From: Gammaproteobacteria bacterium
GTDB taxonomy: Bacteria; Pseudomonadota; Gammaproteobacteria; Chromatiales; Chromatiaceae
Direction of reading: 5' to 3'
Assembly: GCA_018812525.1 (NCBI GenBank)
Contig: JAHJDE010000093.1
Location: 91,288-155,287, forward strand
Length of the DNA: 64,000 nt
Shown here: piece after piece, positions 1 to 59,648 of the stretch
Position numbering within the stretch: position 1 is the first letter of the stretch
Layout: the number at the start of each line of letters is the position of its first letter
Made by a program: the position numbers and the translations under genes
Notes under the pieces: generated by a model
Seen by the model: the letters and a program-made list of their open reading frames with translations, nothing else
What the model was told of the DNA's origin: nothing
Database searches by the model: none

Positions 1-2070
1 GGGGATGGGACGCTCCTTACCCGGGAAAGGCTGCAACGGCTGGATGAGATCAGGGATGCCTTGGACGAATTGAGTATTGTAGCCGAGGTAACGGCCCCCT
101 CCTCGGTATACGCCGACGTCACTCCTTCCCCATTCGGCTTTCAATTCCGGCCTCTGCTAGATACGGTCCCCCCGGATGAGGAGGCCTTACCCAAATGGCG
201 TGAATCCATTCTGGCCGATGATCGCTTCACACCTACGTTTTTCTCCTCCGATGGCAAGCGGGGGGCAATCCTGGTGCGGCTCAATGTCGATGCTGATGAT
301 CTCTTTGCCATGCGGGGGGCCATGGAAGAGATCCGGGGCCTCCTCGGCCGCTTCAACGGGAAGGAGGGTTTGTCATACGCCCCGGCTGGCATGCCTGCCA
401 TTCGGGGCGGCCTGCTCAATGCAATGTTCGCTGACCAGTTCCTGCTCGCGCCACTCGCTATCCTGTTGGTAACACTCTTGCTTCTGGTTCTGTTCGGTAG
501 TTTGCACGGGCTGGTTATTCCGGGAATCGCGGCTACTGTGCCCATGGGGATGTTGCTCGGTGGAATGGGGTATGCGGGGGAGTCCATCGGATTGCTCAAT
601 CAGATCTATCTGGTGCTGATTCCCGTGATCGCATCGGCCGACGCCATCCACCTCATCGCCCGTTTCCATGAGGAGAATGGTGATCGGGTTGAGGAAGATT
701 CGCCGAATACAGGGCGCAGGGAGGCAGTGGTCAGGACCATGCAACACATGGGGGTGGCCTGCTTTCTTACCTCATTCACTACCATCGTCGGGTTCATGTC
801 ACTCAATATGACCCAGCTCCTGGTGTTACGCCGTTTCGGCACCTATGCCGCCGTCGGTGTGCTGCTCGCCTATTTGACGGTTCTGTTCATCATCCCGCTC
901 AGCCTGAACCTGACCCGCCGCAGCAAGAGACAAGGGTCTTCCGGAAGGGATGCACTGACCGGATTTCTCACCAGGGGCGCGCGCTGGTCCATGGGCCATC
1001 CCGTTCTCATCCTGGTCTTGGCGGGGGCGGTCACCCTGGGAGCGGGCATGGCCGGAGCGCAGGTGCGTGTGGATTACCGGCTAACGGGCATCTTTGACCC
1101 GGGCCATCCGGTAGCCGTCGCGAACACGCAGGTTGAAGATCATTTGGGAGGATTGCTCATCCTTGAATTCGATCTGGCCGGTACCGCCGGAGCATTCGAC
1201 GACCCGAAGGTCATCACGGCGCTTGGGGAAGCCGAGGGCCGGCTTGCCGCCCATCCCAAGGTGAAAGTGGTTCTGGGCCTGGGGCGGCTTCTGGCCTGGA
1301 CGAACCGGACCTTCGGCAACCACGAGGGCGCGGGGGATGCCGCTATTGCGCGGCTCATGCTGTTGGCCCAGCAAAGCGGCACCCTTGGTGAATTCGTCAC
1401 GCCGGGGCGGGACCATGCGCGAATGGTGGTGTGGATGGAGGATGTGGGTGCGGCCGATCTCATTGATCTGGCGGAGAGATTCAAGGCCCAGACGGACAAC
1501 CTGCTCAACCCCCTGGGGGTAAGTGTTCATCCGACCGGGAACCTGCTCATGGCCTACCGTGGCCTGGCCCAGGTCTCGTCGGATCTGCGTGACAGCCTGC
1601 TCTCGGCGACTCTGGTAATCGCGTTGACCATCGCCGTCCTGTTCCGGAGTCTCCCAATAGGCTTGCTCTCCCTGGTGCCGAACCTGATTCCGCTCATCAT
1701 CGGCTACGGGGTCTTAGGGTTTTTGGGCTGGAGCTTGGATCCCGCGCCGGCCGTCGTTTTCTGTGTCGCCCTTGGGCTTGTCGTGGACAGCAGCATCCAT
1801 ATCCTTGTGCGCTTTCGCGAGGAGCACCGAAAGGGCTGGGATGTAACTCAGGCGGTCGAGCGGGCGATCCGGTCCGCCGGACGTGCGGTGGCCATGACCA
1901 GCGTCATCCTGACCGGGGGCATGGGTGTGATTGCGTTATCCGCCTTCCCAGCCAATGCCACCTTCGGCACCCTCGGTGCCATTATTACCATCGTTGCGCT
2001 CATCTGTGACCTGTTTGTACTCCCCGCCTTGCTGGTGATCTTCTATGGGAGAAAGGTGCGGACGCCCTGA
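1..2070 (+). CDS. RND-superfamily (MMPL/HAE3-type) hydrophobe transporter, 5' truncated
   Basis: Inner-membrane RND permease of the MMPL/HAE3 type, which moves hydrophobic molecules by proton motive force. The frame is open from base 1, reading GDGTLLTRERLQRLDEIRDA before the first possible internal start at 61, so the gene begins outside the window; transmembrane segment 1 and part of the first periplasmic loop are missing. Visible parts are a membrane bundle (roughly residues 148-305, with the acidic helix IASADAIHLIARFHEE), a periplasmic loop (about 350-535), and a second bundle (about 540-685) with the paired motif VVDSSIHILVRFREEH. This duplicated layout is the family signature. It converges on the oxidosqualene cyclase gene with only 14 nt between stops. 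RND proteins of this kind carry hopanoids (HpnN) and bacterial sterols (BstA of Methylococcus), so sterol transport is a plausible inference, not something the sequence shows. Confidence 0.88.
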   Translation, partial: GDGTLLTRERLQRLDEIRDALDELSIVAEVTAPSSVYADVTPSPFGFQFRPLLDTVPPDEEALPKWRESILADDRFTPTFFSSDGKRGAILVRLNVDADDLFAMRGAMEEIRGLLGRFNGKEGLSYAPAGMPAIRGGLLNAMFADQFLLAPLAILLVTLLLLVLFGSLHGLVIPGIAATVPMGMLLGGMGYAGESIGLLNQIYLVLIPVIASADAIHLIARFHEENGDRVEEDSPNTGRREAVVRTMQHMGVACFLTSFTTIVGFMSLNMTQLLVLRRFGTYAAVGVLLAYLTVLFIIPLSLNLTRRSKRQGSSGRDALTGFLTRGARWSMGHPVLILVLAGAVTLGAGMAGAQVRVDYRLTGIFDPGHPVAVANTQVEDHLGGLLILEFDLAGTAGAFDDPKVITALGEAEGRLAAHPKVKVVLGLGRLLAWTNRTFGNHEGAGDAAIARLMLLAQQSGTLGEFVTPGRDHARMVVWMEDVGAADLIDLAERFKAQTDNLLNPLGVSVHPTGNLLMAYRGLAQVSSDLRDSLLSATLVIALTIAVLFRSLPIGLLSLVPNLIPLIIGYGVLGFLGWSLDPAPAVVFCVALGLVVDSSIHILVRFREEHRKGWDVTQAVERAIRSAGRAVAMTSVILTGGMGVIALSAFPANATFGTLGAIITIVALICDLFVLPALLVIFYGRKVRTP

Positions 2071-2084
2071 TCCCGGACAGCCTC

Positions 2085-4046
2085 TCAGGGCGCCGTGGCA
2101 CGAAGGTACTCGCCCAGTGCCCGGAGAGGGAAATAACGGCGGTAGTTGTCGTAGTGAATGAGACAGGTCTTGTTGAAGATGCCTGTTATGGGTTCGCGGG
2201 GCCAATCGCCATCAGGCTGCTGGAGCGATCCCAGAAAAGAGGCGGCACGCTGGGCGGCGTCGCCATGTGCTCGCCCCGCGCCAACCAGGGCCATGAGTGC
2301 CCATGCGGTGTTGACGGCACGGCTGGGTTCGGCTGCCACGTACCGGCGTTGCAGGCAGCTCTCGAAATGCTCGCCCCAGCCGCCGTCGGGGTTTTGATGG
2401 GCCAGGAGAAAATTCACCGCCTTGCAAATCGCCGGGACCTCGGGACCCTGGCCGGCGGCTCGCAGACCCTGGACGCCGTACCAGGCACCGATGGTAAAGC
2501 AGACGCCCCAGGCCCCCTCCCAGCTCCCATCGGCCCGCTGGTTGTGACGGATGAGTTTCGCTCCTCGCAGAACGGCGCGCTCCAGCTCCGTACCGAAAAG
2601 GTGCCCCAGGCATTCCTTGGCCACCGCCAGGGCCTGCACACAGGCCGAGGTGCATTCGGTATAGGAGTAATCGACCATGATGTCGGCGAACATATGAGAG
2701 GGATTGAAGCGTTCAAGCCACTTGGGGCCGCGGCGGAGTTCGTAAGAGGCCCAACCACCGTCCGGATTCTGGATCGAAAGCAGCCAGCGGATGGCTGCGT
2801 ACAGACGCTCCTCCGTCAGGGGCTCTTCGGCTATGCCCTGGAGGGCAACGGCGCTCTTGAAGCCCTCCGCCGTGCAGTCGCTCACGGCCCAGCCCTGGGC
2901 GCGGCTGCTGAAGGGCCAGCCCCCATAGGAAGGATGGCGATAATAATGTTCGGCCTGGGGAGGGTCCTCCAGGATCTGTGTCTCCTGAATGAAGGCTTGT
3001 GCTCTCCTGAGGCTCTCGATATGCGTCTGGGCGAAAGGTGTGGCAAGGATTGCCTGAACCGCGAAGGCAGTGTCCCAGAGGGCGGTGGAATCCTCGCCGT
3101 TCATCAGCAATCCCTCGGGGGCCTGCCAGAGGTAGCCGTCGAGGGCCTTGAAGTGTGCCCGGAAGGCTTGGCCGCCAGGCTCGCGAAAGTGGTGGACGAT
3201 GCTGTTGAGGACAGCGTTGACCGGGCCGATGTTGATCATACCGGTGGTGCGGTCCTCATAGTCGATATGGTCCAGTACCTGCTCAAGGGATCTGTTCCGC
3301 AGCCTTTGAAGGGGGCATCGCTCATAGGCGTGGAGTAGCCAGTTCACCAGGCGCAGCGGCAGGGAGGGCTTCACGTAGCTGTCGCAGGGGGCCAGGGTGC
3401 CGCGATGCTCCGCGAAGCGGATATGGGCGTAGGGTCGATCATAGATCTCCAGGCGCAGGGCCTGGATCAGGGCCGTCTCGGGGCAGCAGGAACGGTTGGC
3501 ATACAGATAGGAAAGCGGAAGGTAGACTTGCCGTGCGTGGCACCACAACCGGCCGGGGTGGAATGGCAGCCAGCGCGGCAACAGCCAGAGTTCCGGCGGG
3601 ACGGGTTGTACCCCTTCATAGCCGTAGAGGTTGAGGATCGCCAGGACGGACTTGCCCCAACTGGCCGAGCCGAGCGGGGTGTCATGGGAACGGATCCAGC
3701 CGCGCATGCTGACTGCGTAGGGGTCATCGGGCGATACACCTAGAATCCGCAGGGCCACATAGGCGAGGCTGGTGCAGAACATCGAACCCGGTGCCTCCGT
3801 ATGCAGTCCAATGCTGCCGTCAGGGTTCTGTACGGACCGAAAGTAGCGGATCATCTCCCGGCGCCGGTCATCCGGGATCTCTTGACCGGTGGCGTAGGCG
3901 CCGGCCACGTAGAGCGGCAGAAGAAACATCGGGCCGCCGTACTCCCCATCCCAGCGGCCATCCTCCCGCTGCCGCGAAACCAGATGGTCCACCCCGCGCC
4001 GAACGGCATCCAGAATCCGGTCAATCCCGGTCGTTTCAGTCTCCAT
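2085..4046 (-). CDS. Oxidosqualene cyclase (lanosterol synthase-like)
   Basis: Cyclises 2,3-oxidosqualene to a protosterol on the membrane face. The catalytic motif SDCTAE (D near residue 390) marks oxidosqualene cyclases; squalene-hopene cyclases have DXDDTA instead. Other family blocks are EYGGPMFLLP near the N-terminus, PPELWLLPRWLPFHPGRLWC, MINIGPVN, LWDTAFAVQAI, GVCFTIGAWYGV and FNKTCLIHYDNYRRYFPLRA. Several QW repeats (QNPDGSIG, QNPDGGW, QRADGSW, QNPDGGWGE) are present. The residues before the catalytic Asp are Q-G-W-A-V-S; Q and V at the positions equivalent to 477 and 481 of plant cycloartenol synthase favour lanosterol-type closure. I chose ATG 4046 (GGGGA seven bases upstream), giving 653 aa; ATG 4058 is possible, and a longer frame to 4265 only reads through the methyltransferase gene. 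The start overlaps the upstream gene's 3' end by 11 nt, so the two are probably translationally coupled. No squalene epoxidase is in the window. Confidence 0.95.
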   Translation of the reverse strand: METETTGIDRILDAVRRGVDHLVSRQREDGRWDGEYGGPMFLLPLYVAGAYATGQEIPDDRRREMIRYFRSVQNPDGSIGLHTEAPGSMFCTSLAYVALRILGVSPDDPYAVSMRGWIRSHDTPLGSASWGKSVLAILNLYGYEGVQPVPPELWLLPRWLPFHPGRLWCHARQVYLPLSYLYANRSCCPETALIQALRLEIYDRPYAHIRFAEHRGTLAPCDSYVKPSLPLRLVNWLLHAYERCPLQRLRNRSLEQVLDHIDYEDRTTGMINIGPVNAVLNSIVHHFREPGGQAFRAHFKALDGYLWQAPEGLLMNGEDSTALWDTAFAVQAILATPFAQTHIESLRRAQAFIQETQILEDPPQAEHYYRHPSYGGWPFSSRAQGWAVSDCTAEGFKSAVALQGIAEEPLTEERLYAAIRWLLSIQNPDGGWASYELRRGPKWLERFNPSHMFADIMVDYSYTECTSACVQALAVAKECLGHLFGTELERAVLRGAKLIRHNQRADGSWEGAWGVCFTIGAWYGVQGLRAAGQGPEVPAICKAVNFLLAHQNPDGGWGEHFESCLQRRYVAAEPSRAVNTAWALMALVGAGRAHGDAAQRAASFLGSLQQPDGDWPREPITGIFNKTCLIHYDNYRRYFPLRALGEYLRATAP

Positions 4047-5091
4047 TGAAGTCCCCATCCCGCTTTCGGGCGTGAAAAAAAAGCAGGGGGGTGAAGGTGC
4101 CCGCCTCTCCGGCCCGGACGAGTGAATCGCCGCACAGCCGGAGCAACCGGACAACGGCTCCCGCCCCGTGTGGAAGTATTCGGGTATGTTCCAGGGCGGC
4201 AACCATGCCCTGAAGGGCGATGCCGCCGAGGTGGCTTCGCTTGAGGGCCTGGCTTGAGAAGCCATCGCCCTTCAAGGGCAGATACCAGGGGGTCTCCGGG
4301 TCGCATTCCGGTGCCAGATCACGGCATTCGATCAGTTCGAACCCGTTTCCCCTGATGGCTTGTTCGATATCCTGCCGGGTCGTCAGTGAAGGCAGGCCGC
4401 TTCCCTCCTCGATACCTGCCCTGTCACGGCAATGCAGGGGGTTGTAAGGGTCATAATTTTCCGTCAGGCACCACTCGTAACCCATGATATATGCACGTCT
4501 CTTGAGCACCCGGTGGATCTGGCGAAAGAGCGCCCCCCGGTCGCCCGCATGGCAGGTTGCCTCGATGGCGTAGGCCGCATCGATGGTTTCCGCCGCGAGG
4601 GGCAGTTGCATCCAGTCACATTCAATGAGCCCGGTTTCTCCTTCAAGACCGGCCGCCCTATTGAGTTCACGGGCCCGGCGGACCTGATAGCCGTTGATGT
4701 TGACGCCCAGGACCCGCGCTCCCGTGGCTCGGGCAATGTTCCGCATGGGGCCGCCGATGCCGCACCCCAGATCAAGTACCTGCATCCCCGGCTTAAGGCC
4801 CAGTCCCTCGGCCAGGCGTAGCTCGTGTCGCACCAGGGAGGATTCGAGGCCCTCGCCCCGGCGCCGGACACCGAAATGGAACTTCTCTCCCCAGCCGTAT
4901 TCGTAGAGATCGGTCACCAGATCGTAGTAGTTCCGGGATAGCCTCCCGGCCTCCCTCCCCTGATCATCGGCGGCAGAGGCTCGCTGTTCGAGATACTGCG
5001 CCCTGTGCCAACGCACGGCCGACTCCGCCCCCCTCCTGCGGAAGTTGGATTTCAGGAGTCCCAGGAAGGATCGTTGTCTCATGCCAATCAT
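4036..5091 (-). CDS. Sterol C-24 methyltransferase-like SAM-dependent methyltransferase
   Basis: Expected to transfer methyl from S-adenosylmethionine to C-24 of a delta-24 sterol side chain, as Erg6/SMT enzymes do. The 351-residue protein carries the SMT region I signature YEYGWGEKFHF (near residue 64), followed by RHELRLAEGLGLKPG and the SAM-binding motif LDLGCGIGGPMRNIA. VLGVNINGYQVRRARELN, DAAYAIEATCHA, YEWCLTENYDP and IEEGSGLP also match family blocks. Length is typical of SMTs. Alternative starts at 5091 and 5082 both lack a strong ribosome site. Its 3' end overlaps the cyclase start, tying it to sterol synthesis. Related families are tocopherol and phosphoethanolamine methyltransferases, but the YGWGxxFHF block and the cyclase neighbour argue for a sterol substrate. 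Number of methyl additions and substrate cannot be read from sequence. Confidence 0.9.
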   Translation of the reverse strand: MIGMRQRSFLGLLKSNFRRRGAESAVRWHRAQYLEQRASAADDQGREAGRLSRNYYDLVTDLYEYGWGEKFHFGVRRRGEGLESSLVRHELRLAEGLGLKPGMQVLDLGCGIGGPMRNIARATGARVLGVNINGYQVRRARELNRAAGLEGETGLIECDWMQLPLAAETIDAAYAIEATCHAGDRGALFRQIHRVLKRRAYIMGYEWCLTENYDPYNPLHCRDRAGIEEGSGLPSLTTRQDIEQAIRGNGFELIECRDLAPECDPETPWYLPLKGDGFSSQALKRSHLGGIALQGMVAALEHTRILPHGAGAVVRLLRLCGDSLVRAGEAGTFTPLLFFHARKRDGDFNGD

Positions 5092-6908: not shown

Positions 6909-7674
<766 letters not shown>

Positions 7675-7760
7675 TCATAAACACGACTTTCTCCTGGGCA
7701 CCAATTTCAACGCGGGACGGGAAGGATAGCGATATATCGGGACGTCGCAAATGATTTTAC

Positions 7761-8345
7761 TCATTGCGACAGGAAGGATTGAAATTGGACAAGCCCGTAG
7801 CGCACCTGTCCCGCCACCTTCTCACGCAGGGGGACAAGGCCCGGCGGCAGGGGTGGAAAGGGCTTGCCCGCCTCCGTCTCCAGATAGATCCTCGCCCCCT
7901 CCAGTAGCAGGTCGGTCCGCGCCAGGCCCTGGAGGGCCGGTTTCAGGAGACCGTCGGCAAAGGGAGGGTCGATGAACACCAGATCGAATGCCTCCTTGCA
8001 GGAGGCCAGCCAGATCAAGGCGTCCCCGGTCACTACCTCTACATTGGCAAGGCCCAGCTCCCGTGCATTTTCCTTCAGACGGGCCGCGACCTTAGGGTCG
8101 CGTTCCGTCATGACTACCCGCCCGGCGCCCCGGGAAGCAGCCTCGAAGCCGATGGCGCCGCTCCCGGCGAAGAGATCCAGGCAGCGGCTGCCAGGGATGA
8201 AGGGCTGCAGCCAGTTGAACAGAGTCTCCCGCACACGGCCGGCCGTGGGCCGAAGCCCGGCTGCGTCAGGGAAGGAAAGGAGCCTGCCCCGGTGGGTTCC
8301 GCCGATGATACGGACCCGATTGGTCACGCCGGGGCGCCGGCCCAT
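7761..8345 (-). CDS. rsmD: 16S rRNA (guanine(966)-N2)-methyltransferase
   Basis: Methylates G966 of 16S rRNA during 30S assembly, using SAM. The 194 aa protein has the family start RIIGGTHRGRLL, RPTAGRVRETLFNWL, SAM motif CLDLFAGSGAIGFEA, and catalytic motif DPPF in FDLVFIDPPFADGL. Its ATG lies one base after the TGA of the upstream M16 gene, with AAGGG as ribosome site, so translational coupling is likely. Confidence 0.96.
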   Translation of the reverse strand: MGRRPGVTNRVRIIGGTHRGRLLSFPDAAGLRPTAGRVRETLFNWLQPFIPGSRCLDLFAGSGAIGFEAASRGAGRVVMTERDPKVAARLKENARELGLANVEVVTGDALIWLASCKEAFDLVFIDPPFADGLLKPALQGLARTDLLLEGARIYLETEAGKPFPPLPPGLVPLREKVAGQVRYGLVQFQSFLSQ

Positions 8346-8346
8346 C

Positions 8347-9675
8347 TCAGCCCTTCCCGTCGCCGCCGGCGCCCACGGTGATGGTGATGAATCGTTCCGG
8401 TTTCAATCGGCGCTGGAAGGCGTCTCGAACCTGGTCCTTGGTCACCGCCTCCACGTTGGGCACCAGCCGGTCCAGGTAGTCCAGCGGCAGTCCGTAGAAA
8501 CCGATCATGGCCAGGTACTGTACGATTTTGGCGTTGCTCGCGACCGTCATGGGGAAGCCACCGCTGATGTTGCGTTTGGCTGACTCAAGCTCTTTCTCGG
8601 TCGGCCCTTCCTCCATGAAGCGCTGCAATGTTTCCCGCATCACACGCACAGCCACTCTGGCTTGGCTGTTCTGCGTTTGGGCCGTCATTTGGAACGGTCC
8701 CAACTGACTCATGGGCATGAAGTGACTGGAGACACTGTAGGAGAGCCCACGCTTTTCTCTCACCTCCTCACTGAGGATGGAAACCAGACCGTTGCCGCCC
8801 AGGATGTGGTTGCCCACATAGAGTGGGAAATAGTCGGGATCGCCGCGTTTGACGCCGGGCTGACCCAGGTAGATATGGGTCTGGGAGGAAGGGTAGTCGA
8901 TCCGTTTCTCAACCGCCTTGCCGGGGATAGCGGGTTCAGGCAGGGCGGGGGCCTTATCGCCCGCCTGGAGTCCGGAGACAGCCCTTTGTGCCACTGCCCT
9001 GGCCTCGGCGGGGGAGAGATCGCCAACGATGGCGACAATCGCATTATTGGCTACGTAATAGCGGCGGTAAAACGTCTTCACATCCTGTTCCGATAACAGC
9101 TTAAGGGATTCCAGGCTGCCGTTGGGGTTGGATCCATAGGGATGCCCCTGATAGACAGTCGCATAAAAGGCCTTTTCCGCGATATCTCCAAGCGACTCGG
9201 CCTCCTGCATCAGTGACGAGAGCAGGGTCTGGCGCAGGCGCTCCAGGTCGTCCGGGACGAAACGCGGTTCGGCCAGGACCGCTGCCAGGGTCTCCAGGGC
9301 CCTGTCCAGCACCCTCTTGTCGGTCAGGCTGCGAACAGTCACCCAGGCCATGTCGCGCTGGGCACCGTTACTCAGTACGGCACCGACGGACTCCATCCGC
9401 TCCGCCACCTCGTCGGCGCTCCACTTGCCGGCCGATTCGGTCAAGAGACCATTGGTCAATACCGCCGTTCCAGGCCTTGCGCCGTCACGGGCGCTGCCGG
9501 CATTGAACACCACCCGGATATCCACCATCGGTAGGCCCGGCGAAGGCACGAACAGCACCTTGGCGCCGTTTTCCGTGTTCCAGCTTTCGATCTTGGGGGC
9601 GGCCCAGGAATTACTGAATGGTATTAGCAGGCAGATCAAGGTCAGCCAGTGCATCCTCAGCCGCTTAAATATCAT
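8347..9675 (-). CDS. M16-family peptidase-like protein lacking the zinc site (partner subunit)
   Basis: Envelope-located member of the M16 (pitrilysin/MPP) family, 442 aa, with a signal peptide (MIFKRLRMHWLTLICLLIPF, cleavage probably after SWA-A). At the position where catalytic relatives have HxxEH it reads GTAVLTNGLLTES, so it cannot bind zinc in the standard way. It keeps the R/Y pair motif REKRGLSYSVSS in the C-terminal half. Its start overlaps the end of the upstream, catalytic M16 gene by 11 nt. This matches heterodimeric M16B pairs in which one subunit holds the zinc and the other supplies substrate-binding residues. Substrate unknown. Confidence 0.9.
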   Translation of the reverse strand: MIFKRLRMHWLTLICLLIPFSNSWAAPKIESWNTENGAKVLFVPSPGLPMVDIRVVFNAGSARDGARPGTAVLTNGLLTESAGKWSADEVAERMESVGAVLSNGAQRDMAWVTVRSLTDKRVLDRALETLAAVLAEPRFVPDDLERLRQTLLSSLMQEAESLGDIAEKAFYATVYQGHPYGSNPNGSLESLKLLSEQDVKTFYRRYYVANNAIVAIVGDLSPAEARAVAQRAVSGLQAGDKAPALPEPAIPGKAVEKRIDYPSSQTHIYLGQPGVKRGDPDYFPLYVGNHILGGNGLVSILSEEVREKRGLSYSVSSHFMPMSQLGPFQMTAQTQNSQARVAVRVMRETLQRFMEEGPTEKELESAKRNISGGFPMTVASNAKIVQYLAMIGFYGLPLDYLDRLVPNVEAVTKDQVRDAFQRRLKPERFITITVGAGGDGKG

Positions 9676-11047
9676 GGCGCACTCCCGGAATCATCGGTTT
9701 GGCGAAACCCTTTTCCTTGATCGGCTGAGGATCGAGCTCAGCCAGGGTCAGATTGTCATCACTGAGATATTTTTGCGCTGCCTTCATCACCTGCTCCGGG
9801 GTTATCTGCTTCATTCTCTCCACATGGTTCTCGGCCATGCGCCAATCGAGCCCGATGGTCTCCATCATGCCGATCTGCATTGCCTGATAGAAGACAGAAT
9901 CCCTCTCGTAGACCTTAGCCGCCACCAACTGATTGCGAACACGCTCCATCTCCTTCTCTGAAACCGGTTCCTTCTTGAGGCGATCAATCTGCTGCCGCAG
10001 GGCCTTTTCCAGGTCCGCCATGCTCTGTCCCTCGGCCGGGACCCCGTCGAGCATCAGCAACCCCGGCAAGCGGCTAAAGGCGCTGAAGCTGGCACTGGCC
10101 GCAACTGCAACCTTGTCGCGACGGATCAGTTCACGGGCGAAGCGGGCACTGCCGCCGCCGTCGAGTACCGCAGCCAGCATCTCAAGGGCATAGGGCTCCC
10201 ATTCCGCATCCCCTTTCGCCTCCTTGACCACAACGGGGGTCTTGTATCCCATGAGCAGATAGGGCTGTTGGGCCGGGGCCTTGACTCGGATGCGGGTCTC
10301 GCCGAGCTGGGGAGGTTCCGACTCGGGCTTGATCCTCGGCAATTCCGAGGGCTTAAGCTTGCCGAAATAGGTGTTAGCCATTTGAAAAATCCGTTCTGGC
10401 GCTACATCCCCGACCACAACAAGAGTTGCGTTGTTGGGGCTGTACCAGCGGCCGTACCAGTCGCGCAGGTCCTCGATGCGCATATTTTCCAGGTCTGTCA
10501 TCCAGCCGATGACCGGGTTCCTGTAAGGGGAGATCCGATAGGCTGCGGCGTTGAACTGCTCATAGGTTAGAGACTTGGGCTTGTCCTCCGTGCGAAGCCG
10601 GCGCTCTTCCCGCACTACCCGGATCTCTTTGGCGAACTCCTCATCCTTCAGGAGCAGATTGCGCATCCGGTCCGCTTCCAGCTCGAAGGCAATCTCCAGT
10701 CGGTCGCTGGCCAGGGTCTGAAAATAGGCCGTGTAGTCGTCGCCGGTAAAGGCGTTTTCCTGCCCCCCCTGATCGGCGATGATTTGGGAGAATTGATTGG
10801 GGCCGTGCTTTTCCGTCCCCTTAAACATCATGTGCTCCAGTGCGTGGGATACCCCGGTGATGCCGCGCGGTTCATAGCTGGCGCCAACCCTGTACCAGAC
10901 CTGCGTGACGCCAATGGGGGCGCGATGGTCCTCCTTGACGATGACTTTCATGCCGTTGTCGAGCATGCGCTCCTGGACGTGGGGTGGGGAGGCGGCCCAG
11001 AGGGGCCAGGCCAGCGAAAGCAGGCACCAGGGAAGGATTCTACGCAT
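9665..11047 (-). CDS. M16-family zinc peptidase, catalytic subunit
   Basis: Exported metallopeptidase of 460 aa. The N-terminal MRRILPWCLLSLAWPLWAA is a signal peptide. The inverted zinc motif HALEHMMF, with downstream acidic residues in GGQENAFTGDDYTAYF, shows a complete active site. The later R/Y segment reads RELIRRDKVAVAASASFS, without the usual GLxY, which the partner gene keeps; the two subunits therefore look complementary. I chose ATG 11047 because the frame upstream to 11170 encodes no signal peptide and reaches into the promoter region shared with divergent ftsY. The pair lies before rsmD and coaD on the same strand. Confidence 0.92.
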   Translation of the reverse strand: MRRILPWCLLSLAWPLWAASPPHVQERMLDNGMKVIVKEDHRAPIGVTQVWYRVGASYEPRGITGVSHALEHMMFKGTEKHGPNQFSQIIADQGGQENAFTGDDYTAYFQTLASDRLEIAFELEADRMRNLLLKDEEFAKEIRVVREERRLRTEDKPKSLTYEQFNAAAYRISPYRNPVIGWMTDLENMRIEDLRDWYGRWYSPNNATLVVVGDVAPERIFQMANTYFGKLKPSELPRIKPESEPPQLGETRIRVKAPAQQPYLLMGYKTPVVVKEAKGDAEWEPYALEMLAAVLDGGGSARFARELIRRDKVAVAASASFSAFSRLPGLLMLDGVPAEGQSMADLEKALRQQIDRLKKEPVSEKEMERVRNQLVAAKVYERDSVFYQAMQIGMMETIGLDWRMAENHVERMKQITPEQVMKAAQKYLSDDNLTLAELDPQPIKEKGFAKPMIPGVRHDI

Positions 11048-52092: not shown

Positions 52093-52566
52093 ATGCCAAC
52101 ATTTGTGCGTACTGATAAGTGCGATGGCTGTAAGGGCCAGGACAAGACTGCGTGCATGTACATCTGCCCGCACAACCTGATGAAACTGGACAAGGACGGT
52201 TCCGAGACCGGCCACGCCATGAAGTCCTTCAATCAGGAGCCCGAACAGTGCTGGGAATGCTATTCCTGTATCAAGATCTGCCCACAGCAGGCCATTGAAG
52301 CCCGTCCCTATGCCGACATCGTTCCCCTGGGCGGCTCCGTGCAGCCCCTGCGCGGCACTGATTCCATCATGTGGACCATCAAGTTCCGCAATGGCACCAT
52401 GAAGCGCTTCAAGTTCCCGATCCGCACCACCCCCGAAGGCTCCATTGATTGCTACGGCGGCAAGCCCGCTGCAGATATCACCAAGATTGGCTCGTCTGGT
52501 TTCTTCAACCACAACGAGCAGAAAGGCTATCGCGACGGCAATCCCGCTGAGCTGATTTGCAAGTAA
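52093..52566 (+). CDS. aprB: Adenylylsulfate (APS) reductase, beta subunit
   Basis: Electron-transfer subunit of APS reductase, 157 aa. It holds two 4Fe-4S clusters bound by CDGCKGQDKTACMYICP and CWECYSCIKICP. A C-terminal tail (SIMWTIKFRNGTMKRFKFPIRT) wraps the alpha subunit. ATG 52093 has AGGAGA eight bases upstream and matches the usual start MPTFVRTDKCDGC. In a sulfur oxidiser the complex runs from sulfite and AMP to adenylylsulfate. aprA follows after 52 nt. Confidence 0.98.
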   Translation: MPTFVRTDKCDGCKGQDKTACMYICPHNLMKLDKDGSETGHAMKSFNQEPEQCWECYSCIKICPQQAIEARPYADIVPLGGSVQPLRGTDSIMWTIKFRNGTMKRFKFPIRTTPEGSIDCYGGKPAADITKIGSSGFFNHNEQKGYRDGNPAELICK

Positions 52567-52618
52567 GGCGTTTGCCGACTGCTGCAAACCTATTTCTGAA
52601 ATTTTAGAGGTAAGAATA

Positions 52619-54649
52619 ATGGCTGGAGAATTTGGAAATCCCGAGGTAGTCCAGGAAGAAGTTGACATCCTCATCATCGGTGGTGGCATGGGCGCCTGCG
52701 GCGCTGCATACGAAATCGGTCCCTGGCTCGACGCTGCCAAGCAGCAGGGCGTAGACATCAAGGTCAAGGTTGTCGATAAGGCCGCCCTCGACCGTTCCGG
52801 CGCCGTCGCTCAGGGCCTGTCCGCTATCAACACCTACATTGGTCCCGAGCAGGACCCCGCTGACTACGCCCGCATGGTCTCCAACGACCTGATGGGCATC
52901 ACTCGCGACGATCTGGCTTACGACCTGGGTCGCCACGTTGACGAGTCCGTGCATCTGTTCGAAGAGTGGGGCCTGCCGATCTGGAAGCTCGATGCCAACG
53001 GCGAGCGTCATGACGGTGCAGCCGCCATCGGCGAAGGCCTGGCCAGCCTGAAGGATGGCGGCAAGCCCGTCCGTTCCGGCAAGTGGCAGATCATGATCAA
53101 CGGCGAATCCTATAAGTGGATCGTTGCCGAGGCCGCCAAGAAGGCCCTGGGCATGGATCGCATCCAGGAACGTGTCTTCATCGTCAAGCTGGTCAATGAC
53201 AAGAACGATAAGAATCGAGTTGCCGGAGCCGTCGGCTTCTCCGTTCGTGAACACAAGCTGTTCGTCTACAAGTTCAAGGCCTGCCTGCTGGTTGCCGGCG
53301 GCTGCGTCAACCTGTTCCGTCCCCGCTCCGTCGGTGAAGGTCAGGGCCGCGCCTGGTATCCCGTTTGGAACGCCGGCTCCACCTACGCCATGGCCGCCGA
53401 GGCCGGCGCTGAGCTGACCATGATGGAAAACCGCTTCGTACCCGCCCGCTTCAAGGACGGTTACGGCCCTGTGGGCGCATGGTTCCTCCTGTTCAAGTCC
53501 CAGGCCACCAACGCCTTTGGTGAAGTCTACATGGTGCGCAACAAGGAGATGTTGAACGACTATCCTCCCTACGGTCAGGCTGCCGTTCCCGCCTCTTGCC
53601 TTCGTAACCACCTGATGCTCAAGGAGATGAAGGAAGGCCGCGGCCCCATCTGGATGGATACCGTCACCGCCCTCGCCAAGCTGCGCGATACCCTGTCTCC
53701 CCGCGAAGTCAAGCACCTGGAAGCAGAGGCTTGGGAAGACTTCCTTGATATGTGTATCGGCCAGTGCGGTATCTGGGCCGGTGAAAACATCGAACCGGAG
53801 AAGAAGAACTCCGAACTGATGCCCACCGAACCCTACCTGCTTGGTTCACACTCCGGTTGCTGTGGTATCTGGGTCTCCGGTCCCGAGGACGTCGGTGCGC
53901 CGACTTCCGAAGAGCATGCCGAGAAGGGCAAGGTCCCGGCTCACCTGCCGCAGGGCTGGAACTGGGGTTATCGCGGGATGACCACCGTCAAGGGTCTGTT
54001 CACCGCTGCTGACGGTGTTGGCGCGTCCGGCCACAAGTTCTCCTCCGGTTCCCATGCCGAAGGCCGCATGTGTGCCAAGTCCATGGTGAAGTACGTCATG
54101 GACAATAAGGACATGGCTCCTGAGCTGGATACCGACGTAGACACCCTGATCACCGAGATCTATCGTCCGGTCCGCAACTTCCTGGAGTTTAAGGACTACA
54201 GCACCGCCATCGACGTCAACCCCAACTACATCACCCCCAAGATGTTGCAGTTCCGACTGCAGAAGATCATGGACGAGTATGTTGCCGGTGTGGCCACCTA
54301 CTACACCACCAACAACATCATGTTGGATCTTGCCGAGCAGAAGTTGGGCATGCTGAAGGAAGATGCGCTCAAGATGCGTGCAAAGGACCTGCACGAGCTG
54401 CTGCGTGCATGGGAAAACTACCATCGCATCCTGACCGCCGAAGCTCACATGAAACACATCCAGTTCCGTGAAGAATCCCGTTATCCGGGCTTCTACTACC
54501 GCATGGACAAGAACTTCGTGGACGAAGAAAACTGGAAGTGCTTCGTGAACTCCATCTACGACAAGAGCACCAAGACCTGGACCGTGTTCAAGCGCGCCCA
54601 CAAGGATCTGGTGGACAAGAGCAAGCTGTTCAAGGCTGCCGCCCACTAA
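52619..54649 (+). CDS. aprA: Adenylylsulfate (APS) reductase, alpha subunit
   Basis: FAD-containing catalytic subunit, 676 aa, working in the cytoplasm. The FAD-binding start is VDILIIGGGMGACGAAYEIG. Other family blocks are RSGAVAQGLSAINTY, ARMVSNDLMGITRDDLAYD, RFVPARFKDGYGPVGAWF, GSHSGCCGIWVSGPED and GWNWGYRGMTTVKGLFTAAD. No aprM membrane anchor follows; with the qmo genes close by, this is the Apr arrangement that uses Qmo as electron acceptor. A strong terminator follows 26 nt later. Confidence 0.98.
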   Translation: MAGEFGNPEVVQEEVDILIIGGGMGACGAAYEIGPWLDAAKQQGVDIKVKVVDKAALDRSGAVAQGLSAINTYIGPEQDPADYARMVSNDLMGITRDDLAYDLGRHVDESVHLFEEWGLPIWKLDANGERHDGAAAIGEGLASLKDGGKPVRSGKWQIMINGESYKWIVAEAAKKALGMDRIQERVFIVKLVNDKNDKNRVAGAVGFSVREHKLFVYKFKACLLVAGGCVNLFRPRSVGEGQGRAWYPVWNAGSTYAMAAEAGAELTMMENRFVPARFKDGYGPVGAWFLLFKSQATNAFGEVYMVRNKEMLNDYPPYGQAAVPASCLRNHLMLKEMKEGRGPIWMDTVTALAKLRDTLSPREVKHLEAEAWEDFLDMCIGQCGIWAGENIEPEKKNSELMPTEPYLLGSHSGCCGIWVSGPEDVGAPTSEEHAEKGKVPAHLPQGWNWGYRGMTTVKGLFTAADGVGASGHKFSSGSHAEGRMCAKSMVKYVMDNKDMAPELDTDVDTLITEIYRPVRNFLEFKDYSTAIDVNPNYITPKMLQFRLQKIMDEYVAGVATYYTTNNIMLDLAEQKLGMLKEDALKMRAKDLHELLRAWENYHRILTAEAHMKHIQFREESRYPGFYYRMDKNFVDEENWKCFVNSIYDKSTKTWTVFKRAHKDLVDKSKLFKAAAH

Positions 54650-54674
54650 TCCCCTGGGGATAGTGGACTAGGAG

Positions 54675-54707
54675 TCCGGGCGTCCTTGGGCGCCCGGATT
54701 TTTTTTT
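54675..54707 (+). terminator. Rho-independent terminator after aprBA
   Basis: TCCGGGCG and CGCCCGGA form an 8 bp stem with an 8-base loop, followed by nine T. Confidence 0.93.
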
Positions 54708-54791
54708 GCCATCGATTAAGCCGTGGTTTTTTGACGGCTGTCATTGATTTATCCTTCCCCGGATTTGAACGAACTCGAATTGGCTAAGTAA

Positions 54792-55685
54792 ATGAGCGAA
54801 AAGTTTGACATCCCATTTAAGAGCAAAGTGGTCCCCGCCGTCCTGGAAGAGGGCGCCCGGATCAGATTCCGTTGCCACAAGGAGATCTCCTGCTTCAATG
54901 CCTGTTGCCGGAACGCCGATATCACTCTGACCCCCTATGATGTGATCCGCCTGAAGCAGCGGTTGGGCCTGGGCTCTGCTGAGGTCCTCAGGGAACATAG
55001 CCTGCCCTTTGAAATGGACAATCATGGGCTTCCCGGCATCAAGATGAAGACTTCGGATAGCGGTGCCTGCCTCTTCATGCGCGAGGGGGAGGGCTGCTCC
55101 GTCTACGAGGACAGGCCTACCGCCTGCCGATACTATCCCATCGCCATGTTGGCCATGAAGCCCAGTGACGAGCCAACCGAAAGGCATGCCTATAGCCTGG
55201 TCAGGGAGGCCCATTGCAAAGGGCATGAGGAGTCGGCTGAGCAAACCGTTGAGGAATACCGGCGGGCCCAGGGGGTCGCCGAGTACGATGAGATCAATCG
55301 GGATTTTTACCAGCTCATCCTCAAGAAAAAATCCACAGGTCCTGCGGTGGGCCGTCCCTCCGAGACCAGCCTGCAACTCTTCTTCATGGCCTGTTATGAC
55401 ATCGACCGGTTCAAGACCTTTGCCCTGAGCCCATCTTTCCGCGCCTCTTACAAGCTGGATCCGTCGGTATTCGAACAGATCGAAATCGACGACACCTTTG
55501 CCCTGCAATTTTCCATGGCCTTTCTCAAGCAGGTGTTGTTCGGTGAGAAAACCATTGCGGAGCAGGAGGGTGCCTGGGAGAAGCGCGTTGCCGAGCGCAA
55601 GGAAATATGGGAATTACGCCGTCAGGCCGAGATTGCCAGGGCCGAGCAGAAGAAAGAGGAGTTGATGCGGGAAGTGGAGTCCTGA
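54792..55685 (+). CDS. YkgJ-family cysteine-cluster protein
   Basis: 297 aa. The N-terminal half has the YkgJ (CxxxCxxC-type) cysteine cluster: CHKEISCFNACCRN, then CLFMREGEGCSVYEDRPTAC, likely to bind Fe-S or zinc. The last 50 residues are a charged coiled-coil (EKRVAERKEIWELRRQAE). There is no signal peptide. It lies alone between aprBA and the convergent qmo genes, so maturation or regulation of the sulfur-oxidation enzymes is an inference from place only. Confidence 0.82.
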   Translation: MSEKFDIPFKSKVVPAVLEEGARIRFRCHKEISCFNACCRNADITLTPYDVIRLKQRLGLGSAEVLREHSLPFEMDNHGLPGIKMKTSDSGACLFMREGEGCSVYEDRPTACRYYPIAMLAMKPSDEPTERHAYSLVREAHCKGHEESAEQTVEEYRRAQGVAEYDEINRDFYQLILKKKSTGPAVGRPSETSLQLFFMACYDIDRFKTFALSPSFRASYKLDPSVFEQIEIDDTFALQFSMAFLKQVLFGEKTIAEQEGAWEKRVAERKEIWELRRQAEIARAEQKKEELMREVES

Positions 55686-55757
55686 GCATCCAGCAAGCCG
55701 AAGATTCAGGATTGAGGTGAAAAAACCCCGGGTCAATTTCTGGACAGCCTGACCCTG

Positions 55758-55790
55758 AAAAAAAGGCCCTCATAATGAGGGCCTTTTTTT
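55758..55790. terminator. Bidirectional terminator between ykgJ-type gene and hdrB
   Basis: GGCCCTCAT and ATGAGGGCC are flanked by seven A on the left and seven T on the right, so the hairpin ends transcription from both converging genes. A further GGGTCA/TGACCC pairing precedes it. Confidence 0.92.
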
Positions 55791-55810
55791 GAGCCGCTTG
55801 CGACCGTCTG

Positions 55811-56710
55811 TTATTTCTTGGCGATCTCTTCCAGTTGCTTGGCGGAAACCACCTGTCCGTCCAGTGCGGCATCCTTGGCGGAACGGCCGAAGGCAACGGC
55901 CATCAGGCTGGAGTAATAGACCACGGGCATCTTGAACTTGGTGCCATAGGTACTATTGATCTGGTCCTGATAGATCTCCACATTGGCCTGGCAGAGGGGG
56001 CAGGGGGTGACGATCATGTCGGCGCCATGGTCATAGGCGGCCTCGATGATGCCCTTGATCATCTCCTGGGATTTCTCCGGTTCAGAGAAGGCCAGGGCGC
56101 CGCCGCAGCACTGCACCTTCTTTTCATAGGTCGGGATCGATTCGGCACCCAGGGTCTCGACCAGCCGGTCCAGATAGAGGGGGTTCTCGTAGGACTCGCC
56201 GGCGATGCCGAAGGGGCGGTTGGTCTGGCAGCCGACATAGCCCGCGATCTTAAGGCCCTCCAATGGCTTCTTGACCTTGGAGCCTATCTCCGCATACCCG
56301 ATGTCTTCCACCAGGACTTCCGCCATGTGCTTGATCGGTGTGGCATTGTTGAGCTTGAGTCCGGCCTCTGCCAAGGCCTGGCTGGCCTCTGCCATCAGTG
56401 CGCCATCGTGGTGGAAGCGCTCGGCGGCCTCGCGCGTCGCAAGCCAGCAGGCCGCGCAGGTTGCCACTATGTCCTGTCCGGCATTGTGTTGCTCGGAAAG
56501 GGCGATGTTACGGGCCGAAAGGGCCAGCCGAGGCAGGACGCCGCCTCCGCCGTAGCCGATGGATGCCGCACAGCAGTTCCAGTCAGGGATCTCGTTGAGC
56601 TTGATATCAAGCTCCTCGCACATGGTCTGGACGGAGACCAGATAGTTCGAGGAGGATGCGCCCTTCTGGGAGGAACAGCCCGGATAGAAGGAATATTCAC
56701 GCTTTGCCAT
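55811..56710 (-). CDS. HdrB-like subunit of the Qmo complex (CCG-domain protein)
   Basis: 299 aa heterodisulfide reductase subunit B family protein with two CCG cysteine-rich domains. The first runs from YPGCSSQKGA through WNCCAAS to CAACW. The second has GYVGCQTN, CCGGALAF and CPLCQAN. Such domains bind non-cubane Fe-S clusters. With HdrC it replaces the QmoC membrane subunit in many sulfur oxidisers. ATG 56710 has GAGGAG nine bases upstream; the frame above it extends into hdrC only. It is the last gene of qmoA-qmoB-hdrC-hdrB. Confidence 0.93.
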   Translation of the reverse strand: MAKREYSFYPGCSSQKGASSSNYLVSVQTMCEELDIKLNEIPDWNCCAASIGYGGGGVLPRLALSARNIALSEQHNAGQDIVATCAACWLATREAAERFHHDGALMAEASQALAEAGLKLNNATPIKHMAEVLVEDIGYAEIGSKVKKPLEGLKIAGYVGCQTNRPFGIAGESYENPLYLDRLVETLGAESIPTYEKKVQCCGGALAFSEPEKSQEMIKGIIEAAYDHGADMIVTPCPLCQANVEIYQDQINSTYGTKFKMPVVYYSSLMAVAFGRSAKDAALDGQVVSAKQLEEIAKK

Positions 56711-56723
56711 CAGTGCCGTCTCC

Positions 56724-57350
56724 TCATTTACCGTATTTCGCGATGCGCGCGTCTTCAAGTTCCTGCGCCTTTCTGATCATCTTTTGCAGGCCGGAAACAT
56801 CCTTGACGCCGTGGCCGCCGAAGAATTCGACAGCGTTCATGCGCTTGGCCTTTATCATGTTCTGCCCCAGTTTCATGTTGGCCAGGGAGTTCTTGATGCC
56901 CTGCACAAAGCCATCCTTGTAATAGAGGGAGAGGCCAAGCTTCAGTTCGTTGACTCGGCCGGCCTTCATCATGTTGTCCCAGAAAATCTGGGCGAATGCC
57001 ATGGTCGGCTGTCCCTTTGGTGCCAGGCCAAGGCGTCTCGCATAATGGGCCAGGCCGTGCATGATGTGGGTGATGGGCAGCTCGCGGGGACAGCGGACGA
57101 TGCAGTTGTAGCAGGAGGTGCACATCCACATCGCGTCGGAGCTGAGCACTGCCTCGCGCTGGCCGGCACGGATCATCATGAAGATTTCCTGCGGGGGGTG
57201 TGCCCAGTGCTTGCCGAGGGGGCAAGAACCCGAGCAGACGCCACACTGCATGCACATCTTCACCCATTCGCCTTCTTCGACATTTGCTTCGACTTCCTTG
57301 AGGAAGCTGTTGCGATACTTTTCGATCATGTTTTGATTGAGGTCGCTCAT
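56724..57350 (-). CDS. HdrC-like subunit of the Qmo complex (4Fe-4S protein)
   Basis: 208 aa soluble iron-sulfur protein. Two clusters are bound by CMQCGVCSGSCP and CTSCYNCIVRCP. The remainder is helical. It matches the N-terminal half of QmoC but lacks the cytochrome b-like membrane part. It probably links QmoB to HdrB. The start is ATG 57350 with AAGGGAG upstream; 12 nt separate it from qmoB. Confidence 0.93.
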   Translation of the reverse strand: MSDLNQNMIEKYRNSFLKEVEANVEEGEWVKMCMQCGVCSGSCPLGKHWAHPPQEIFMMIRAGQREAVLSSDAMWMCTSCYNCIVRCPRELPITHIMHGLAHYARRLGLAPKGQPTMAFAQIFWDNMMKAGRVNELKLGLSLYYKDGFVQGIKNSLANMKLGQNMIKAKRMNAVEFFGGHGVKDVSGLQKMIRKAQELEDARIAKYGK

Positions 57351-57362
57351 CTGCGGGCTCCC

Positions 57363-59645
57363 TTAGAACTTGAACGGGCTTTGGCCGATACGGGCGATGG
57401 TATCGGCCATATCGTTAATCAGCTTGGGTGCGCGCTCTATGTCGGTGATAGCCACTTCGTAGAGAGCGACACGCTCGGGTTCGAGGTTGAGCGAGGAGAG
57501 GGTATCCCCGACCTTGCTCATGCGCTCGGCAGCTATGGCGGAACCCCGCACAAAGTGACACTGGTAGTCGTCGTCACGGCGGCAACCCATCAACACCACG
57601 CCATCGTAACCGCTGTTCAGCGAGTCGGTAATCCAGGAGAGGTTGATTGACCCCAGGCAGCGAACCGGGATGACGCGCGCCCAGGGGGTTAGCTCCCTGC
57701 CCGACATGGATGCCTGGTCGAGGGCCGGATAGGCATCGTTTTCACAGGCGAACACCAGGACGCGCGGCTTTTCGGCGAACTCGTCCGGGATATTGCAGTT
57801 CTTGATCTGCTGATTGACCGATTCGACCGAATAGTTCTCGAAGGAGATGACGCGGACTGGGCAGGCACCCATGCAGGTCCCGCAACGGCGGCAGCGGGCC
57901 TCGTTGTAGAGTGGGTAGCCCTTATCATCCTCATTGATGGCGCCAAAGGGGCATTCAACCGTGCAGCGTTTGCATTGGGTGCAGCCTTCCTTGCGGAAAC
58001 TGGGGAAACTCAGATCGCCGGAACGGGGATGGGCCGCGCGGCCAAGACCGGCGTTTTCAACCGCCTGGATTGCCTTCATGGCGGCGCCGGCGGCATCATC
58101 CATGGCCTGCTGGATGTCCATGGGTCGACGCACGGGGCCAGCGGCGTAGATGCCGGTGCGCCGGGTCTCATAGGGGAAACAGATGAAGTGGGAGTCGGTA
58201 AATCCGTGACGCAGGTGCGGCAGGTCTGTACCTTGACGGTAGCTGAGATTCAGGATGGACGGCGGGGCCACTTCCAGTGCCTTTCTCAGCGTCTCTTTCT
58301 CGCTGGAGCCTTCCGCAGCCTCATCGAAGGCGAGTTGGGCATAGGGATCGGGGCCGGAATTGGCGACAATGCCAGTGGCCAGAACCACCAGGTCACAGGT
58401 TATTTCAGTGGCTTCGTTCAGGATCAGGTCCTGGAACCTGACCAACAGGCTGCTGCCTGGAACAACCTCAGTGGCCTTGCCCTTGGAGAAGGTCACCATC
58501 TTCTGCTGGCCGGCGCGGTAGAAGTCTTCACCGGCCGCGCCAGGGGTGCGTAGGTCATCAAAGAGGATGGTGGCGTCGCAGCCGGGATTCTGGTCCTTGA
58601 AATAGATCGCCTGCTTGATGGAAGTGGTACAGCAGAAGCCGGAGCAGTAAGGGAGGTGTGCCTCCCTCTCGGACCGTTGCCCGGCGCACTGGATGAAGGC
58701 GACGCTCTGAACCTCTTTTCCATCGGACGGACGCCTGATCGGGCCGTTGCCGGCCTCTTTCGCCAGCTGTTCCAGTTCCAGGTTGGTGACCACGTCGGGG
58801 CTCGCGCCGTAGGCAAATTCGCCGAGCTGGCCGGCATCGTATGGCTTGAAGCCCGAAGCCTGGATGATGGCGCCGAAGTCGGCGGAAATGGTCGGGCCGG
58901 AGGCGGTAGCAATTTCTACGGAGAAACGACCGGGCGCGCCGGAGGTCTTGGCTACTGTGCTATTAAGCTGCACCGAGATGTTGCCGGCAGATTCAATGCG
59001 CGTGATCAGCTCAGCGACATTGTTGTCGACCGGCTGCGGCAGATCGGCGGTGCGGCTGTTGGTGGTGCCAATGGCTGCGGCGCGATGGGGTACCCGCTTG
59101 TGCAGAAGGGCGGCATGGCCACCCAGGGCACCGCTTTTCTCGACCAAGGTGACTGGGTAGCCCGCCGCGGCGGCTTCCAGAGACGCAGTCATGCCGGTTA
59201 CGCCACCACCCACGACCAGGATGTTTTTGTTCAGGCTTTGCTCGCCAGAGGATGAGGGTTTGTTGATGGTCCTCAGCTCGGCGCAGGCCATGCGGATGTA
59301 ATCCTCGGCCATCTCTTGGGTTGTTTCGCCGTTTTCGTCCGTTGCGGGGCGTACCCAGATGACCCCTTCACGCAGATTGGCGCGGGTCATGGCCGCCTCG
59401 GGGAAGTTGAAGGCCTCGACCTTGGCGCGGCGAGAGCAGGCGGCGATCATGATATGGGTGGCGCCTTCGGTGATGTCGTCCTTGATCATCTTTACGCCCT
59501 CGGCGTTGCACAGCATCTCGTGCTGCTTGCACTCCTGGAGTTTGCCTTCACGTTTTGCGGTGGACAAGAGCTGTTTGGCATCAAGGCGATCGCCAATGCC
59601 GCATCCGGTGCAGAGGTAACCCACTAATTTCTTTTCGGCAGACAC
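57363..59645 (-). CDS. qmoB: Quinone-interacting oxidoreductase subunit QmoB
   Basis: 760 aa flavo-iron-sulfur protein related to HdrA. It has an N-terminal CTGCGIGDRL motif, the FAD dinucleotide fold ILVVGGGVTGMTASLEAAAAG, and the HdrA-type cysteines CAGQRSEREAHLPYCSGFCC. Two 4Fe-4S motifs follow (CTQCKRCTVECP, CRRCGTCMGACP). The C-terminal MvhD-like domain begins ACENDAYPALDQ. It starts with GTG at 59645 (GGAGGG upstream), 3 nt after qmoA. Subunits A and B carry electrons from AprBA. Confidence 0.95.
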   Translation of the reverse strand: MSAEKKLVGYLCTGCGIGDRLDAKQLLSTAKREGKLQECKQHEMLCNAEGVKMIKDDITEGATHIMIAACSRRAKVEAFNFPEAAMTRANLREGVIWVRPATDENGETTQEMAEDYIRMACAELRTINKPSSSGEQSLNKNILVVGGGVTGMTASLEAAAAGYPVTLVEKSGALGGHAALLHKRVPHRAAAIGTTNSRTADLPQPVDNNVAELITRIESAGNISVQLNSTVAKTSGAPGRFSVEIATASGPTISADFGAIIQASGFKPYDAGQLGEFAYGASPDVVTNLELEQLAKEAGNGPIRRPSDGKEVQSVAFIQCAGQRSEREAHLPYCSGFCCTTSIKQAIYFKDQNPGCDATILFDDLRTPGAAGEDFYRAGQQKMVTFSKGKATEVVPGSSLLVRFQDLILNEATEITCDLVVLATGIVANSGPDPYAQLAFDEAAEGSSEKETLRKALEVAPPSILNLSYRQGTDLPHLRHGFTDSHFICFPYETRRTGIYAAGPVRRPMDIQQAMDDAAGAAMKAIQAVENAGLGRAAHPRSGDLSFPSFRKEGCTQCKRCTVECPFGAINEDDKGYPLYNEARCRRCGTCMGACPVRVISFENYSVESVNQQIKNCNIPDEFAEKPRVLVFACENDAYPALDQASMSGRELTPWARVIPVRCLGSINLSWITDSLNSGYDGVVLMGCRRDDDYQCHFVRGSAIAAERMSKVGDTLSSLNLEPERVALYEVAITDIERAPKLINDMADTIARIGQSPFKF

Positions 59646-59648
59646 TGT

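Follow-up and report, generated by a model that had tools for sequence, protein, structure and literature searches.

Bacterial gene clusters that unite a sterol C-24 methyltransferase (SMT) with an oxidosqualene cyclase (OSC) have already been described, with in vitro activity shown for many of their SMTs (Brown et al. 2023, PMC10070321). When bacterial OSCs were surveyed, none came from an anaerobe, and an alternate anaerobic route was left open (PMC4919349). The window analyzed here, the whole stretch of 64,000 nucleotides from a gammaproteobacterial contig, carries a further SMT-OSC pair. The initial annotation called this two-gene unit possibly undescribed, which is too strong given the published clusters (PMC10070321); what look new are the host, the gene overlap, the private residues of the active site, and a link between related OSCs and proteins of the peptidase U32 family. 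We propose that the pair belongs to a small locus, gained by horizontal transfer, for making a lanosterol-type triterpenol with a methylated side chain, a reading that we give a probability of about 0.6 on the strength of sequence comparison. The features of the locus are:

L004:11925-13136, reverse strand, just outside the left end of the window: squalene synthase, divergently oriented
1-2070, forward strand, beginning left of the window: MMPL/RND transporter with a sterol-sensing-domain match (PF03176 and PF12349, above cut-off)
2085-4046, reverse strand: oxidosqualene cyclase, lanosterol-synthase-like, 653 aa (Pfam, NCBIfam and PDB matches, catalytic residues, tree)
4036-5091, reverse strand: sterol C-24 methyltransferase, 351 aa, the upstream gene of the pair (Sterol_MT_C, Methyltransf_11)

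The cyclase-methyltransferase pair and its surroundings

The OSC reading frame is intact, and the ATG at 4046 gives the 653-aa form. The longest open reading frame (726 aa, from 4265) adds only a part outside the homologous region, alignments beginning at about residue 14 of the 653-aa form. The protein is 44% identical over its whole length to human lanosterol synthase (LSS; PDB 1W6K), matches both the N and C SQHop_cyclase domains of Pfam, and scores 607 bits against the squalene/oxidosqualene cyclase model TIGR01787 (cut-off 322.7). Its top-scoring model is TIGR03463 "osq_cycl" (728 bits, E 6e-219), a bacterial OSC subfamily whose cut-off of 851 bits it does not reach; the family assignment of this divergent OSC therefore rests on other features. 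These include a DCTAE motif at residues 390-394 and the catalytic set D390, C391, C465, H170, and Y435, with F379 also kept. In a tree with a squalene-hopene cyclase outgroup, the window OSC falls with the OSCs. The window OSC bears only a distant likeness to squalene-hopene cyclase. Motif, profile scores, and tree rule out a squalene-hopene cyclase, the identity against which the initial annotation had asked for a phylogeny, and its description of a cyclase with DCTAE and other eukaryote-like blocks holds. We confirm 2085-4046 as a eukaryote-like OSC, predicted to cyclize 2,3-oxidosqualene; no second triterpene cyclase was found in the window genome.

The upstream gene is likewise intact. It scores 46.6 bits against Sterol_MT_C (cut-off 21.7), lies above the cut-off for Methyltransf_11, carries the motifs YEYGWG..FHF, LDLGCGIGGP (GCGxGGP), YAIEATCH, and GYEW, and shares 38-43% identity with the SMTs of four other OSC genomes. 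We confirm 4036-5091 as a sterol C-24 methyltransferase, with methylation of a delta-24 sterol as its predicted activity. As first noticed from its YEYGWGxxFHF signature, this gene overlaps the cyclase start: the OSC ATG (4046-4044) and the SMT stop (4038-4036) give an overlap of 11 nt. The start codon thus lies within the last codons of the SMT, and GGGGA stands five bases upstream of it, which together suggest that the two genes are translationally coupled. A promoter and terminator scan of the OSC-SMT locus returned nothing. True SMTs (E below 1e-70) were found in four of the 49 other OSC genomes searched, never beside the OSC. Within the clade of the window OSC, Spirochaetes RBG_16_49_21 (L028/L226) combines an OSC and an SMT in a genome with no squalene epoxidase (SE).

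The MMPL gene is convergent with the OSC at a distance of 14 nt and encodes a full protein of 770 aa (L004:13046-15358). It falls far under the cut-offs of the HpnN model TIGR03480 (94.5 against 751.9) and the BstA model (19.4 against 1400); judged from its position only, it is a possible lipid exporter. At about 40-46% identity, the squalene synthase most resembles enzymes from Myxococcaceae and Methyloceanibacter, and its GC content is somewhat below that of core genes, as if gained together with the OSC. The group is bordered by a MutM-like gene to its left and by CoaD-, FtsY-, and FtsE-like genes to its right. The initial annotation had considered a chimera at a contig end. The locus lies mid-contig, about 91-96 kb into 181,474 bases (the window starts at base 91,288), and the OSC and SMT resemble core genes in GC and codon use; there is thus no sign of a chimera, and one is unlikely here. 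Apr- and Qmo-like genes, also named in that first reading, are present at about 52093-60929 of the window together with heterodisulfide-reductase-like genes, recognized by eye from translations. They are in line with a sulfur-oxidizing lifestyle.

Among 147 sampled genomes of the host's order, the window genome alone carries an OSC, and G027, a genome of the same genus, has none. When 84,980 species genomes were scanned with a method that depends on two peptide patterns, 117 relatives emerged, 80 of which were kept. These are mostly from Myxococcota, with others from Spirochaetota, Bacteroidota, methanotrophs, Verrucomicrobiota, and Actinomycetota, so the earlier list of the main bacterial holders of sterol cyclases (Methylococcales, Planctomycetes, and myxobacteria) is roughly right. 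In the tree, L020 is the sister of the window OSC (SH-aLRT 89), and both lie inside a 19-member group (97); the window OSC is nested among OSCs from Myxococcota and Spirochaetota. Its isolation among the 147 genomes, its absence from G027, and this nesting argue for horizontal gain.

Active site and predicted product

In human LSS numbering, the window OSC keeps Y98, H232, W387, F444, D455, C456, Y503, C533, W581, and F696; squalene-hopene cyclase differs, with D at both 455 and 456 and with V at 533. Position 453 holds V, the lanosterol-type residue (PMC4919349, PMC6423090), where other bacterial OSCs mostly have I, and F444 is also a lanosterol-type residue (PMC9236903). The combination of V453 and F444 points to a lanosterol-type rather than a cycloartenol- or parkeol-type outcome. 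Q449 accompanies them; T381 and C/Q449 are further product-class residues of lanosterol synthases. The enzyme also carries private changes. Positions 381 and 587, which are Y in all 84 of the other bacterial OSCs, hold E and I, respectively, and P452A and F591Y are present as well; counted along the window protein, residues 318E, 387A, 519I, and 523Y are absent from all 84 other OSCs. Because of these private residues, the enzyme may be impaired or may yield something other than lanosterol; a shift in product may be their effect. In the window protein, substituted positions of the active site and its neighborhood are 318, 384, 387, 388, 519, and 523.

The initial annotation had recommended a search for C-14 demethylation genes. 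A search of the window genome gave zero P450 matches, so CYP51 demethylation at C-14 is not expected and the 14-methyl group would be kept. Given the SMT, our most economical guess at the product is a 24-methylated, eburicol-like 14-methyl sterol. In the pathway that we propose, squalene synthase would join farnesyl diphosphate into squalene, and an enzyme with no assigned gene in the window genome would convert squalene to 2,3-oxidosqualene. The OSC would fold this substrate via the protosteryl cation into a lanosterol-like protosterol, which the SMT, with SAM, would methylate at C-24 to a compound such as 24-methylene-dihydrolanosterol (eburicol). This lipid would retain its 14-methyl group, and its movement towards the outer membrane may be the task of the MMPL protein.

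This reading draws on the identities of the OSC and SMT, on the catalytic Asp-Cys set with H232/Y503, F444, and V453, and on the neighboring squalene synthase in a genome with no other triterpene cyclase to use squalene. Against it stand the private residues at or near the active site (E for Y at 381 and I for Y at 587, together with 452 and 591) and the missing substrate step, as neither a canonical SE nor the U32 partner described below was found; in an assembly of 215 contigs a gene may have been lost despite a listed completeness of 100. We infer the activity, the product, its transport, and the descent of the cyclase from a lineage with a possible U32 oxygen supply.

Substrate supply and the U32 protein

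A profile search of the window genome for SE found none; the best match (3e-6) is of UbiH type. It was ruled out as an epoxidase: its gene is one of two neighboring UbiH-family genes that follow a PepP-like gene, and the same search also gives a match in E. coli. The FA_hydroxylase superfamily (PF04116) includes sterol desaturases and alternative squalene epoxidases, and the genome encodes a single member (281 aa; G000:C99, L125). It showed no link to the OSC locus, and its candidacy as an alternative epoxidase is unsupported. Across 68 other OSC genomes, the same search gave a clear SE in 49 (E 1e-13 to 1e-91), none in 17, and weak UbiH-like traces only in the remaining two (L025 and L065). 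The 17 SE-less genomes are found chiefly among the nearest relatives of the window OSC, and the gap in the window genome is probably not just an artifact. The initial annotation had named absence of SE as a result that would refute its reading; the absence stands in the profile search, but it does not refute OSC function because SE-less genomes are the rule in the clade.

Neighborhood clustering of the SE-less OSC loci revealed a conserved protein of about 430 residues that adjoins the OSC and matches PF01136 (peptidase U32; 33-45 bits, cut-off 22.4). The best fold match of its predicted model is the U32 structure 5D88, with modest TM-scores. By an HMM of this protein, 16 of those 17 genomes without SE carry a member of this one subfamily, full-length or contig-split (E below 1e-200), next to the OSC wherever the contig permits; in the 17th the contig ends at the OSC. 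Four of the SE-positive OSC genomes searched also have it. Within the 19-member group around the window OSC, 14 members are SE-less with U32 (or, in L030, have the upstream side cut off), two have both SE and U32, and one with U32 was scored for U32 only; the others are L025 and the window. The U32 gene lies directly upstream of the OSC in L019, L020, L024, L026, L028, L031-L034, L046, and L070, on the opposite strand, adjacent or near, in L021, L062, and L218, one gene away in L029, L037, and L211, and in the same cluster in L224+L210 and L225+L212. An apparent U32-OSC fusion in L019 was dismissed, as the long open frame there is not the reading frame of the U32 gene.

The mutase domain of the bifunctional chorismate mutase-DAHP synthase (CM) makes prephenate, and this enzyme adjoins the U32 gene in many genomes. 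U32 and CM also occur within clusters of mevalonate-pathway, prenyl synthase, and OSC genes (L211, L210+L224, L212+L225, L218, L029, and L070), some of which hold squalene-forming genes as well; whole clusters run to HMGS, HMGR, MVK, FPPS, HpnE, CM, U32, GGR, and OSC. Known U32 oxidases hydroxylate in the absence of O2, and TrhP, RlhA, and UbiUV depend on prephenate as their likely oxygen source (PMC6599085, PMC11574389, PMC6747719). This context suggests that the OSC substrate could be formed by a route independent of O2. The best-surviving alternative account of the missing step, tentative and short of even odds, is that the cyclases of the clade receive an oxygenated substrate from this U32 protein, acting as a prephenate-using iron-sulfur enzyme with no need of O2, and that the window genome inherited such a cyclase but relies on another enzyme, or one lost or unassembled. 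In 46 scored OSC genomes, the counts were 16 SE-/U32+, 2 SE-/U32-, 4 SE+/U32+, and 24 SE+/U32- (Fisher p 1e-6, a value inflated by shared ancestry); about three contrasts are independent, about two of them in the expected direction, which is too few for significance. The CX6CX15CX3C motif of U32 oxidases is absent from the OSC-linked protein, whose invariant cysteines are C182-x3-C186, C216, and the C-terminal C360/365/368/371, and characterized U32 enzymes act on quinone rings or RNA bases rather than alkenes. The subfamily was not found in the window genome by HMM. The three U32 proteins there are TrhP-, UbiU-, and UbiV-like, and we rejected them as the missing partner, for they are not orthologous to the OSC-linked U32. 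CM-U32 pairs also turn up where the fetched flanks, roughly 2-8 kb long, contain no OSC (L204-L207, L217, L219-L221); the protein is not strictly OSC-bound, and its function is therefore maybe broader or different.

A second alternative, which we consider doubtful, is that a canonical or divergent SE exists in the organism, unassembled or beneath the reach of the profile, and serves an ordinary aerobic pathway. The 215 contigs leave room for this. L025, a clade member for which the searches gave no clear SE and no U32 protein, has three P450-like genes downstream of its OSC (3505-4782, 7216-8589, and 8603-9994), as an aerobic pathway would. However, the listed completeness is 100, and the profile was able to detect SE elsewhere, in 49 OSC genomes, down to divergent sequences at 1e-13.

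It is improbable that the cyclase uses squalene to form a 3-deoxy tetracycle, or is remodeled for another substrate with DCTAE kept by descent: the missing epoxidase and the private substitutions would fit, but the epoxide-activating D455/C456/C533 are intact, unlike in squalene-hopene cyclase, and the SMT would require a sterol-like substrate. No better are the chances of an acquired, non-functional remnant, which a cyclase unique in its order and lacking the upstream step might suggest, but which sits poorly with intact frames, core-like codon use, and conserved catalytic residues.

We retain the reading of a horizontally acquired locus for a methylated triterpenol. The window contributes a putative sulfur oxidizer with an OSC of the SE-less clade, an overlapping SMT, and an active site unlike those of all OSCs compared. 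The broader outcome is a coherent set of OSC genomes in which SE is undetectable, U32 is mostly beside the cyclase, and a prephenate-making enzyme is adjacent in many; with this set, the formation of sterol-type lipids in the absence of O2 is directly testable with two or three genes. Steranes are taken as markers of eukaryotes and of oxygen. If, as we suppose with confidence well below one half, a prephenate-dependent U32 protein oxygenates the clade's substrate with no need of O2, sterol-type lipids, some of them side-chain methylated, could be made anaerobically and would not by themselves be evidence of oxygen.

Comparison with known systems

Our literature search found nothing that links U32 proteins to squalene, oxidosqualene, or sterols, and nothing relevant on sterols, Chromatiales, and oxidosqualene together; subscription papers and preprints were outside its scope, so the novelty of the U32 link is stated provisionally. 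The OSCs of Myxococcota (nearest L019 and L020; also Corallococcus and Myxococcus) are the closest relatives of the window OSC, at 58-59% identity to the nearest, and share its DCTAE motif and H232/Y503. In contrast to them, the window OSC has E-Q-V where they have Y-H-I (LSS positions 381/449/453), as well as I in place of Y at 587, and its host carries Apr/Qmo-like sulfur-oxidation genes. Relative to human LSS (1W6K), it features E for T at 381, I for Y at 587, and a shorter N-terminus.

The OSC-linked U32 protein resembles UbiU/UbiV, TrhP, and RlhA in its PF01136 match, a predicted fold nearest to 5D88, and a link to prephenate supply; it differs from them in its cysteine pattern and its company of isoprenoid genes, and is absent from the window genome. 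Finally, the clusters of Brown et al. 2023 (PMC10070321), like the window, hold SMT and OSC together in one bacterial cluster. Their sources are sponge symbionts, a Sandaracinus MAG, and further metagenomes, and many of the clusters include sdmA/sdmB, whereas the window locus comprises squalene synthase, MMPL, OSC, and SMT only, with an 11-nt overlap between the last two, in a genome with neither SE nor P450.
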